A stretch of 64,000 nucleotides of DNA from Rhodospirillales bacterium (GTDB taxonomy: Bacteria; Pseudomonadota; Alphaproteobacteria; Dongiales; Dongiaceae), in NCBI GenBank assembly GCA_009885795.1, contig VFKA01000063.1, forward strand, positions 1-64,000, read 5' to 3'. This document shows positions 41,804-45,932 of the stretch, one piece after another. The position numbers were made by a program, and so were the translations under genes. Position 1 is the first letter of the stretch. Each line of letters opens with the position of its first letter. The notes beneath the pieces are model-generated. The model searched no databases and was not told where the DNA came from. It saw only the letters and a program-made list of their open reading frames with translations.

Positions 41804-42139
41804 ATGACCTATGTGGTGACCGAGGCCTGCATCAAGTGCAAGTACATGGACTGCGTCGAGGTCTGCCCGGTGGACTGCTTCTACGAGGGCGAGAACATGC
41901 TGGTCATCCATCCCGACGAGTGCATCGATTGCGGCGTGTGCGAACCCGAATGCCCCGTGGAGGCGATCCTTCCCGACACCGAGTCGGGCATGGAGAAATG
42001 GGTGGAGATCAACCGCCAGTACTCCGAAGCCTGGCCCAATATCACGCGAATCGGCGTGCCGCCGCCCGATGCCAAGGAGTGGGAGGGCGTCCCTGAGAAG
42101 TTCGAGAAGCACTTCAACCCCAACCCGGCCAAGCGCTGA
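41804..42139 (+). CDS. fdxA: Ferredoxin FdxA (7Fe/8Fe type)
   Basis: The 111-aa ferredoxin starts [29 protein letters not shown] and carries a second cluster motif [15 protein letters not shown], typical of FdxA with a [3Fe-4S] and a [4Fe-4S] cluster; electron carrier in the cytosol. The long C-terminal extension ([17 protein letters not shown] onward) is normal for this group. ATTGGAGAAC gives a ribosome binding site before the ATG at 41804. fdxA next to carD, with the S4/helicase genes upstream, is an order known in Alphaproteobacteria. A hairpin terminator follows. Confidence 0.97.
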
Positions 42140-42435: not shown

Positions 42436-42987
42436 ATGGCGCGCAACAACGGGACGAAGGTCCAGAACGGGACAAAAGTGCAAAAAGCGGCGCAAAAAGA
42501 GCTCGGCTTCCGAACCGGCGATTTCGTGGTCTATCCGACCCATGGCGTGGGCAAGGTTCTCGGCATCGAGGCGCAGGAGATTTCCGGCCTTCGCCTGCAG
42601 CTCATCATCATTCATTTCGAGAAGGACCGCATGACGCTGCGCGTGCCGGTGACGAAGGCCAAGAATTCCGGCTTGCGGCGTCTGAGCTCGCGCAAGATCA
42701 TCGACACGGCGCTGTTGACGCTCAAAGGGCGCTCGCGCATCAAGCGCGTGATGTGGAGCAGGCGCGCCCAGGAATATGAAGCCAAGATCAATTCCGGCGA
42801 CCCCGTCTCGATCGCCGAGGTCGTGCGCGATCTCCACCGCGGCGCCGATCAGCCCGACCAGTCCTTCAGCGAACGGCAAATTTATCAGGCGGCTCTGGAC
42901 CGGCTGGCGCGCGAATTGGCGGCGGTCGAGGACATCGACGAGAAAGCGGCGTCGGACCGGCTCGAACAACTGCTGAAGGCGGCCTAA
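42436..42987 (+). CDS. carD: CarD family transcriptional regulator
   Basis: CarD-type proteins bind RNA polymerase beta through a Tudor-like domain and stabilise open complexes. The 183-aa protein has this domain, ELGFRTGDFVVYPTHGVGKVLGIEAQEI, then the C-terminal helical DNA-binding part, SRRAQEYEAKINSGDPVSIAEVVRDLHR and FSERQIYQAALDRLARELAAVE. The N-terminal ~18 residues (NNGTKVQNGTKVQK) are low complexity and contain a short repeat. The ATG at 42436 is preceded by GAGGGG. It has its own apparent promoter at 42232-42260. Confidence 0.96.
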   Translation: MARNNGTKVQNGTKVQKAAQKELGFRTGDFVVYPTHGVGKVLGIEAQEISGLRLQLIIIHFEKDRMTLRVPVTKAKNSGLRRLSSRKIIDTALLTLKGRSRIKRVMWSRRAQEYEAKINSGDPVSIAEVVRDLHRGADQPDQSFSERQIYQAALDRLARELAAVEDIDEKAASDRLEQLLKAA

Positions 42988-43083
42988 ACCGACGCGCGGC
43001 GCCACCGACCGAGTTCGGATCGCGCCCGAAGACGAGACCGGCCCCTAGTACCCGCGATCGTTGAAACGTGGGTCGGGCCTCTA

Positions 43084-43139
43084 TCCTTCGACAGGCTCAG
43101 GATGAGGCCCTCATGCCGAGCTTGTCGAAGCATGAGGGT
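43084..43139. repeat. Short palindromic repeat of the CTTCGACAGGCTCAGGATGAGG type
   Basis: CCTTCGACAGGCTCAG with GATGAGG, and CTCATGCCGAGCTTGTCGAAGCATGAGG, form two adjoining hairpins of a widespread intergenic family. The remaining 42988-43181 gap has no gene and no obvious promoter. Confidence 0.75.
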
Positions 43140-43181
43140 TGGGGCTGCGTAACACGCTTCCATGATTCCGGGTACTAGAGC

Positions 43182-43982
43182 ATGTCCGACAAGGACAAGT
43201 TCGCGGTGTTGCGCCGGTGCCGGCGGATATGGGCGGTCTCGTCGATCCATGGCGAGGCGGAGCGGCTGATCTTGCTGCACGAGGCGCTCGCACCGCGCTT
43301 TCAAGACGGCGACAGGTTCGTCTATCTCGGCAACTACCTCGGCAGGGGGCGCGGGATCCTGGGCGCGCTCGACGCGTTGCTGGATTTCCGCCGCCAGGCG
43401 ATCGCGCTTCCCGGCATGTTTGCGTCCGACGTCGTCCACCTGCGCGGCAGCCAGGAAGAAATGTGGCAGAAGCTGTTGCAGCTTCAGTTCGCCCCCAATC
43501 CGCGCGAGGTGCTGTCTTGGATGCTCGACCAAGGCGTCGGGCCGACGATCGAGGCCTATGGCAGCGACATCCGGCATGCGCGCGCGGTCGCCGGCCAGGG
43601 CCCGATGGCGATCACCCGCTGGACGGGCGCCCTTCGCGCCGCCATGCAGCGTTGTCCAGGGCATTTCGCGTTCATGTCCCATCTGCGCCGCGCCGCCTAT
43701 AGCGACGACACGGGCCTGCTGTTCGTGCATGCCGGGATCGACCCCGAACGGCCGCTGACAGCGCAGAGCGACAGCCTGTGGTGGAACACGGGCGGATTCC
43801 AGCGCCTCGACCGGCCGTTCGATGGATTCGCACGCGTCGTGCGCGGCTTCGATCCCAACCATGGCGGCATCGTCGAATGGCCCTACGCCTGGTCGCTCGA
43901 CGCCGGGTGCGGCTTCGGCGGCAAGCTGATCGCGGCCTGCTTCGATCCCGCCGGCGACGTCATCGACGCGATCGAGGTGTGA
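43182..43982 (+). CDS. PPP-family metallophosphatase homologue with altered metal-binding motifs (pseudophosphatase)
   Basis: The 266-aa protein is clearly of the PP2A/ApaH-like fold, but the metal and catalytic signatures are replaced. GDxHG reads SSIHG, GDxxDRG reads GNYLGRG, GNHE reads GSQEE, and the later GH reads GF. FVHAGIDPERPL and GCGFGGKLIAACFDPAGD, which are not metal ligands, are kept. With the Asp, Asn and His ligands gone it should not be an active phosphatase, so I infer a binding or regulatory role. I recall related Rhodospirillales proteins with the same changes, which would mean a conserved subfamily, but that needs an alignment. The downstream gene is a MarR-like regulator. 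Confidence 0.85.
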   Translation: MSDKDKFAVLRRCRRIWAVSSIHGEAERLILLHEALAPRFQDGDRFVYLGNYLGRGRGILGALDALLDFRRQAIALPGMFASDVVHLRGSQEEMWQKLLQLQFAPNPREVLSWMLDQGVGPTIEAYGSDIRHARAVAGQGPMAITRWTGALRAAMQRCPGHFAFMSHLRRAAYSDDTGLLFVHAGIDPERPLTAQSDSLWWNTGGFQRLDRPFDGFARVVRGFDPNHGGIVEWPYAWSLDAGCGFGGKLIAACFDPAGDVIDAIEV

Positions 43983-44062: not shown

Positions 44063-44593
44063 ATGGCCACGCGCCGACCCACCCGCACCGCCGCCGGCGA
44101 AGCGCTATTCGCGGTCGTGATCGAGACGCTGGCGACCTTTTTTCGCCTGCGAGCGGCCGGCATCAAGTTCGGCGCGGTGACGCCTTGGGGCGGCGGCGCC
44201 TGGGGGTTCCTCAGAAGCTTGAAGGTCGATGGCCCGCGCACCGTCGCCCAGTTCGCCCGTAACCGGTCGGTCAGCCGCCAGCATATCCAGAAACTGGCCG
44301 ACGAGATGGAGGAAGCGGGGCTGATCGAGTTCCTAGCCAATCCCACCCACCGCCGCTCGCCGCTCATGCGGTTGACGGCGCGCGGCGACACGCAGCTACG
44401 CCGCCTCGGCGCCTTGGGCCGCGATTTCGCCGAATCGATCGTGGGCGGCATGAACGAAAAAGAGCTGCGGATCGCCGCCGGCGTGCTGCGCTCCTTGCGC
44501 GACAGGCTGGAGCATGGCGTGCCAAAGCAGAATGGCGGCCTGCGGGCGCGCACCAAGAGCGAGACCGCCCGCCGCCGCCGGCGCATGAACTGA
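44063..44593 (+). CDS. MarR/winged-helix-type transcriptional regulator
   Basis: The 176-aa protein has a central winged-helix segment, AWGFLRSLKVDGPRTVAQFARNRSVSRQHIQKLADEMEEAGLIEFLANP, with LMRLTARGDTQLR as the wing, and a C-terminal helix plus basic tail (TKSETARRRRRMN). It is related to MarR-type regulators and would act as a DNA-binding dimer. No ligand pocket residues can be named. The ATG at 44063 was chosen; the frame is open farther upstream over the phosphatase gene's end. It lies between the pseudophosphatase and cyclase genes. Confidence 0.85.
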   Translation: MATRRPTRTAAGEALFAVVIETLATFFRLRAAGIKFGAVTPWGGGAWGFLRSLKVDGPRTVAQFARNRSVSRQHIQKLADEMEEAGLIEFLANPTHRRSPLMRLTARGDTQLRRLGALGRDFAESIVGGMNEKELRIAAGVLRSLRDRLEHGVPKQNGGLRARTKSETARRRRRMN

Positions 44594-44621
44594 CCGCCTG
44601 ATTTTTCGCGGAGAGACTCGC

Positions 44622-45932
44622 ATGGCCCGAACCATCACCGCCTCGTCCAGCATCCTGGTGACGCGCGCCGCCGACTGGCTCATGGAGCAAGCGCTCAACG
44701 ACGCCGAGCTTGAGGTCACCGTACGCGGCGCTTGCGAGCGATTGCGGGCCGCCGGCATTCCGCTGGCGCGCGCGCAGTTCTCCTTCGCGGTGCTGCATCC
44801 GCTCTATGGCGCCGTCGGATTCACCTGGCGCAAGACCGAAGGGCTGAAGGTCGAGGGCTATCTGCACAACACGAACGACGTGGGATCGGATCGTTTCCGG
44901 CAGAGCCCGTACTACCATCTCGTGCACAATGGGCTGAGCCACCTGCGCCGCCGATTGGATACCGGCGACAAGGCGGAGTTCCCGATCTTCGAGGATCTGC
45001 GCAAGGAGGGTCTGACCGACTACCTCGCCTTCGTGAGCAGCTTCGCCGCCGGCCGCGCCCAGGGCATGCTGGGTTCGTGGGCGACGGATCAGGCCGGCGG
45101 CTTCGCCGAAGCGGAGATCGAGCATCTTCTCGACGTCCAGGGCGCGCTCGCCGTCGCCAGCAAGATGGCGATGCGCACCGGCCTCGCGAAGAGCGTGCTG
45201 ACGACCTATATCGGCGGCAAGGCCGGCGAGCGCGTCCTATCGGGCCAGATCAAGCGCGGCGACGGCGAAACCATCCGCGCCGCCATCGTCTGGGGCGATT
45301 TGCGCGGTTCGACGCAGATGGCCGAGACGCTGGGACGCCAAGCCTATATCGACAACCTCGACACGTTCTTCGACGCCACCGCCGGCGCGGTCGCCGACGC
45401 GGGCGGCGATATCTTGAGCTTCATCGGCGACGGCTTTCTCGCCATCTTCCCCTGCGGGAGAAATCACAAGGAATCGCAAGAAGCCTGCCGCCTGGCGCTG
45501 TCGGCCTCGCTCGAATCGGAGCGGCGGATGAGCGACGTCAACGGCGAACGCCGCCGCGGCGGCGATCCGGAGTTGGGCTATGGCGTCGGACTTCATATCG
45601 GCAACGTCATGTTCGGCAATGTCGGGCTCGCCGACCGGCTGTCCTTCTCGGTGTTCGGTTCGGCGGTGAATGAAGCGTCGCGGCTGGAGGCGCTGACCAA
45701 ATCCTACAAGACGCCGATCGTCGCCAGCGACGCCTTCAAGGATTATTGCGGCGGCGCCTGGGAACAGCTGGGCACAGAGCGCCTGCGCGGCGTGGCCAAG
45801 CCTGTCGCGATTTTTCGCCCGGCGCCGGGCGACGGCGCGTGGCGGCCGGCCGCCATCGCCAAGCGAAACGTCGCCCGCGGTCTCACCGATGCCGAGAACG
45901 TCGTCCTGCTGCACCGCGACCAGCCGGCTTAG
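44622..45932 (+). CDS. Class III adenylate/guanylate cyclase
   Basis: The 436-aa protein has a C-terminal class III cyclase domain (about residues 220-410). AAIVWGDLRGSTQMAE supplies the first metal Asp and LSFIGDGFLAIFPC the second; NVMFGNVGLADRLSFSVFGSAVNEASRLE and the substrate-side residues follow. The N-terminal ~200 residues contain no membrane segment and form a domain I do not recognise (FRQSPYYHLVHNGLSHLRRRL, ADLRKEGLTDYLAFV), which may sense a ligand; similar N-terminal regions occur in other rhizobial-type cyclases. It follows the MarR-like gene. Confidence 0.9.
   Translation: MARTITASSSILVTRAADWLMEQALNDAELEVTVRGACERLRAAGIPLARAQFSFAVLHPLYGAVGFTWRKTEGLKVEGYLHNTNDVGSDRFRQSPYYHLVHNGLSHLRRRLDTGDKAEFPIFEDLRKEGLTDYLAFVSSFAAGRAQGMLGSWATDQAGGFAEAEIEHLLDVQGALAVASKMAMRTGLAKSVLTTYIGGKAGERVLSGQIKRGDGETIRAAIVWGDLRGSTQMAETLGRQAYIDNLDTFFDATAGAVADAGGDILSFIGDGFLAIFPCGRNHKESQEACRLALSASLESERRMSDVNGERRRGGDPELGYGVGLHIGNVMFGNVGLADRLSFSVFGSAVNEASRLEALTKSYKTPIVASDAFKDYCGGAWEQLGTERLRGVAKPVAIFRPAPGDGAWRPAAIAKRNVARGLTDAENVVLLHRDQPA

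Follow-up and report, generated by a model that had tools for sequence, protein, structure and literature searches.

The window considered here, a stretch of 64,000 nucleotides, encodes on its forward strand a 266-residue protein (43182..43982) with segments reminiscent of the PPP family of phosphatases and with unusual residues where the catalytic metals should be bound. The locus raises the question of whether this protein, referred to here as pPPP, is still a phosphatase and, if it is not, what role it might have. A sequence-only reading of the window had listed the segments SSIHG, GNYLGRG, GSQEE, FVHAG and GGKL and a late GF; all are present as described in an open reading frame of the extent given, GSQEE within RGSQEE and GF within VVRGF, and alignment places the motifs on the PPP signatures.

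Overall fold and relationship to PPP phosphatases

The AlphaFold2 model of pPPP is confident (pLDDT 94.2, pTM 0.92). A Foldseek search of the PDB with this model produced lambda PP as the top match (1g5b; E = 1.8e-10, probability 1.00), with 2qjc next and PP1, PP5 and PP2A after it. An intact PPP paralogue encoded in the genome of the window, modelled as a control, gave a TMq to 1g5b of 0.58–0.60, similar to the 0.53–0.57 obtained for pPPP, and a search of a viral structure library with pPPP matched only phage or viral PPP-type and calcineurin-like proteins. At the profile level, comparison of the pPPP family with intact paralogues using hhalign gave a probability of 99.8% (E = 1.2e-30), and a profile of 66 homologues searched against the PDB matched 2qjc, PnkP phosphatase and RLPH2 (E = 1.5e-5 to 4.5e-4). 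The descent of pPPP from PPP phosphatases is thus practically certain.

The Pfam search with the window protein produced no match; over the 66 members the calcineurin-like matches were weak (best E = 0.003), and none places the family in PF00149, PF12850 or PF14582. Identity as ApaH, the symmetrical Ap4A hydrolase, was considered and rejected, the score against NCBIfam NF001204 being 15.1 bits, far below the family cut-off of 176; the weak sequence match to ApaH (2qjc, NF001204) lies mainly in the C-terminal segment. Plasmid records were of no help for annotation, offering only PPP-like matches of <35% identity outside the pPPP family.

Residues at the former metal site

The correspondence of motifs was set by two alignments against intact alphaproteobacterial PPPs, one with MAFFT and one profile–profile (hhalign). 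The roles of the site residues are taken to be the standard ones of PPP enzymes (Asp64, His66, Asp92, Asn124, His125, His173 and His248 in PP1 numbering). On this basis the PPP/calcineurin-like fold is present in pPPP and the GDxHG, GDxxDRG, GNHE and C-terminal HGH motifs are all absent. In the position of GDxHG, SSIHG (43239..43253, forward strand) has Ser in place of the ligand Asp (D21 to S) and retains His23; among 127 distinct family members the first of these positions is Ala in 68, Ser in 46, Pro in ten and Cys in two, with Asp listed for none, while the His is kept in 110 and lost in 17. GNYLGRG (43329..43349, forward strand) replaces GDxxDRG, with the bridging Asp changed to Asn (D51 to N; Asn in 110, Gly in 14 and Asp in two of the 127) and the DRG Asp changed to Gly54 (Gly in 126, one gap, Asp in none). 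In RGSQEEMWQK (43443..43472, forward strand), aligned with RGNHE, the ligand Asn has become Ser (N90 to S; Ser, Ala, Gln or Gly across the family) and the catalytic His, the general acid, has become Gln91 (118 of 127), so that GNHE reads G-S-Q-E with both Asn and His lost and Glu kept; the segment continues as a near-invariant motif of the family's own, LRG-x-QEEMWxK. FVHAG (43722..43736, forward strand) is intact in the window protein, including His183, and this position is His in 51 and Asn in 52 of the 127 members. Finally, VVRGFD (43836..43853, forward strand) stands at the VVHGH position, with the ligand His replaced by Arg221 (Arg in 118 of 127) and the second His by Phe223 (Phe or Tyr in the family).

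The claim that all metal-site motifs had been replaced therefore slightly overstates the case: most ligands are changed, but His23, His183 and the Glu of GNHE remain. The reported change of the late GH to GF is correct, but the loss of the metal-ligand His that opens HGH had been missed.

The loss is shared throughout the family. Of seven site residues, none is kept in 12 members, one in 64, two in 49 and three in two, and at most one of the three catalytic residues survives in any of the 127. Among 22 intact paralogues, by comparison, all seven are present in 21 and six in the remaining one, with all three catalytic residues in every case. No intermediates with intact motifs were found among the 127 members; L013 and L046 retain the bridging Asp only. 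The replacements are themselves conserved (Gly54, Gln91, Arg221 and Asn51, in that order), 36 columns are invariant across 66 sequences, and residues that are near-invariant in pPPP and not in intact PPPs include Trp17, Arg70, Glu93, Lys97, Gly140, Trp147, Gly160 and Trp200. Purifying selection is strong, with dN/dS values of 0.01–0.03 between Kiloniella species and 0.03–0.18 for other close pairs; two comparisons with the more distant L061 (dN/dS 0.56, dN 0.40) are poorly aligned or saturated and are not relied upon. Because 127 distinct members share the altered state and the Kiloniella values are so low, chance or a broken gene can be excluded as its origin, and there is scarcely any doubt that pPPP is under selection for some function. 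As far as can be judged from its sequence, pPPP very probably lacks metal catalysis of the PPP type. The proposal that it is no longer a two-metal phosphatase is borne out at this level by the changes to both ligand and catalytic residues.

Distribution and phylogeny

One strong pPPP match each (E = 1e-127 to 9e-50) was found in 134 of 385 sampled alphaproteobacterial genomes, indicating a single-copy gene; the total was counted by hand from the match list with the cut placed in the gap between 9e-50 and 8e-20, and it depends both on this gap and on genome samples that are subsets of the class or phylum. The sequences retrieved from beyond the gap (from 8e-20) belong to ordinary PPPs whose motifs are intact. 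A single genome collection holds 68 pPPP loci, mostly in Rhodospirillales, and the carriers include Kiloniella, Pelagibius, Fodinicurvata, Azospirillum, Magnetospirillum and one assembly labelled Micavibrio. No match below 1e-20 was found outside Alphaproteobacteria in 398 genomes of the phylum, a sample in which the share of other classes is not shown. Within the family to which the window belongs, 16 of 17 genomes carry the gene. One member from this family, L081 (G008:C24:144134-144925), carries a TAG in frame close to the end of pPPP, which perhaps reflects a changed C-terminus or an error in the sequence.

In a tree of 54 pPPP members and 22 intact PPPs the two groups form separate clades with 100/100 support and approximately 2.3 changes per site between them, although the bootstrap is not fully settled. 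Close homologues with intact motifs, which would have spoken against a pseudoenzyme, were not found, the intact relatives forming the other clade. The expectation that related Rhodospirillales proteins share the changes as a conserved family is thus upheld, extends to relatives of this order, and concerns a family that has no Pfam model. With a phosphatase fold, lost catalytic residues and conservation as a family, pPPP has the features of a PPP-type pseudophosphatase.

Genomic context

Directly upstream of pPPP lies a gene for CarD, the CdnL-type RNA-polymerase-binding factor (42436..42987, forward strand, start assigned by eye; Pfam CarD_C 5e-24, CarD_TRCF_RID 1e-14), preceded by fdxA, encoding a ferredoxin (41804..42139, forward strand, named from its sequence alone). 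CarD occupies this position on the same strand at 114 of the 131 loci with enough flank (87%), and fdxA precedes CarD at 84 of 101; these and the following counts include near-identical pairs from different collections and are numbers of loci, not of independent events. An RpoH-type sigma factor follows within 700 nt on the same strand at 48 of 129 loci under a strict count, or about 51 if three early-starting frames are included, and is not adjacent in most loci. The downstream RpoH was identified as such by its match to NCBIfam NF005693, which at 368.7 bits (E = 1.7e-110) exceeds the cut-off of 315. In the genome of the window no RpoH exceeds the NF005693 cut-off, and RpoH-like matches occur only on other contigs and below it; in another genome of the same family (G016), pPPP is followed by RpoH. 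Measured up to the point where the aligned frame begins, the median distance between CarD and pPPP is 138 nt; in a dozen loci it shrinks to 10–34 nt, which suggests that the two genes are co-transcribed there.

The same neighbourhood exists in genomes that lack pPPP. All of 23 genomes without a strong match (L166–L188) have CarD, usually with fdxA before it, and in about ten of them RpoH comes immediately after CarD, so fdxA–carD–rpoH is the wider arrangement, in which pPPP takes the slot between carD and rpoH. Indeed, fdxA and carD are adjacent in nearly all sampled Alphaproteobacteria. The association of pPPP with CarD may therefore be positional only, synteny not being equivalent to interaction.

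Possible function

The safest statement is that pPPP is a pseudoenzyme and, by elimination, a binding protein; most likely it is a regulatory or binding protein without an earlier description. It is best explained as an old, vertically inherited PPP-fold protein of single origin, confined in the searches made to Alphaproteobacteria, in which the two-metal catalytic site disappeared and a new set of conserved residues (LRGxQEEMWxK, Arg70 and Arg221) was acquired on and near the former active-site loops. Rather than catalyse a reaction, it may work through binding and serve as a regulator or adaptor in a stress-transcription module comprising CarD, RNA polymerase and RpoH. Such a protein could bind CarD, RNA polymerase or a sigma factor or, alternatively, could be a sensor that takes up a small ligand or phospho-group into a metal-free pocket, where Arg221, in place of a metal-ligand His, might supply the positive charge formerly given by the metals. 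In Caulobacter, rRNA transcription is supported by CdnL, which binds RNA polymerase (PMC5324124). CarD or RNA polymerase is the best-supported partner, with synteny as the sole basis, and on the same basis the case for a functional link to CarD and RNA polymerase is evenly poised. The explanation as a whole, a PPP-fold pseudoenzyme with a binding role in this module, is given roughly an even chance. A more specific version, in which pPPP is a non-catalytic subunit or regulator of the CarD–RNA polymerase machinery in Rhodospirillales and relatives, possibly sensing a ligand and tuning rRNA or stress-sigma transcription, is put forward tentatively.

The strongest competitor, held to be rather improbable, is a binding-type pseudophosphatase unrelated to CarD, which would regulate or compete with another protein, for example for the substrate of an intact PPP paralogue, its linkage to CarD reflecting chromosomal inertia. 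Intact paralogues do coexist with pPPP in many genomes, including that of the window, the fdxA–carD pair is conserved even where pPPP is missing, and pPPP persists without a nearby CarD in several lineages (for example L046, L108, L112, L116, L119, L121, L125 and L128). This reading must nevertheless account for a CarD adjacency that is maintained across deep divergence, as well as for the many pPPP genomes with no intact paralogue among the matches listed, a set from which low-scoring paralogues may have been missed.

An enzyme re-purposed for metal-free or otherwise different chemistry, with a site rebuilt from Arg70, Arg88, Gln91, Glu92, Glu93, Lys97, Arg221, Asp240 and His161, is less probable still. 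Many near-invariant polar residues do lie on the former active-site loops, and Glu92, Asp240 and His161 are common to active PPPs; retention as part of the scaffold can account for these last three, however, Gln stands in place of the catalytic His and the acidic metal ligands have disappeared. That pPPP still works as a metal-dependent phosphatase, through a remodelled site, is very unlikely: although His23 and often His183 are left, nearly all of the 127 members lack both Asp residues, the Asn and the ligand His, His23 itself is not universal, and PfPPP8, with a single PPP motif lost, is already without activity (PMC10317984). The reading as a pseudogene in decay or as an artefact of sequencing, for which the stop codon in G008 could be cited, is refuted by more than 120 intact distinct open reading frames, the invariant columns and dN/dS values down to 0.01.

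Comparison with known proteins

With the PPPs of bacteria and phages (lambda PP, 1g5b; alphaproteobacterial paralogues such as L088) pPPP shares the fold, the order of motifs, the Glu of GNHE, the FVHAG region and a D-x-G segment near the C-terminus, but differs in its replaced metal and catalytic residues, its own invariant motif and its separate, fully supported clade. PfPPP8 of Plasmodium, experimentally characterized in 2023, was reported as the first PPP-family pseudophosphatase, and its lack of activity accompanies the loss of one PPP motif (PMC10317984). Both PfPPP8 and pPPP belong to conserved families with a PPP fold and have lost the GDxxDRG aspartates (GNLINRG in PfPPP8, GNxxGxG in pPPP); PfPPP8, however, is a eukaryotic protein of the basal complex with one motif lost, and the relationship is apparent at the superfamily level only. 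The kinetoplastid kPPPs, predicted earlier (PMC2175518), likewise have catalytic substitutions but are eukaryotic, uncharacterized and of a different lineage. In the open-access literature searched, PPP pseudophosphatases are described from protists only; no bacterial example was found, which, for a search confined to open-access papers, is weak evidence, and no report of a carD–pPPP–rpoH cluster was found in the same literature.

A bacterial family present in about one third of the sampled alphaproteobacterial genomes, lacking a Pfam model and often lodged between two RNA-polymerase-binding factors would exemplify the recruitment of an enzyme fold for regulation. It may also supply a component so far missing from CarD-dependent transcription in a large group of bacteria, Azospirillum and Magnetospirillum among them, and culturable relatives make direct testing possible.

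Other features of the locus

In the window, a MarR regulator and a same-strand nucleotide cyclase (44063-45932) lie where many relatives have rpoH. The suggestion that pPPP acts with one of these was not sustained, as MarR occurs in this position only in the window and the cyclases found downstream at 26 loci are on the opposite strand. In L105 and L116, two of the divergent members, a gene for an FtsK-like DNA translocase (named by eye) replaces rpoH directly downstream on the same strand. Between carD and pPPP in the window there is a 134-nt element (43045-43178) whose 26-nt ends are inverted with respect to each other, being 81% complementary and starting CTAGTACCCG. It contains a TTCGACAGGCTCAGGATGAGG palindrome and has the appearance of a REP or MITE insertion.
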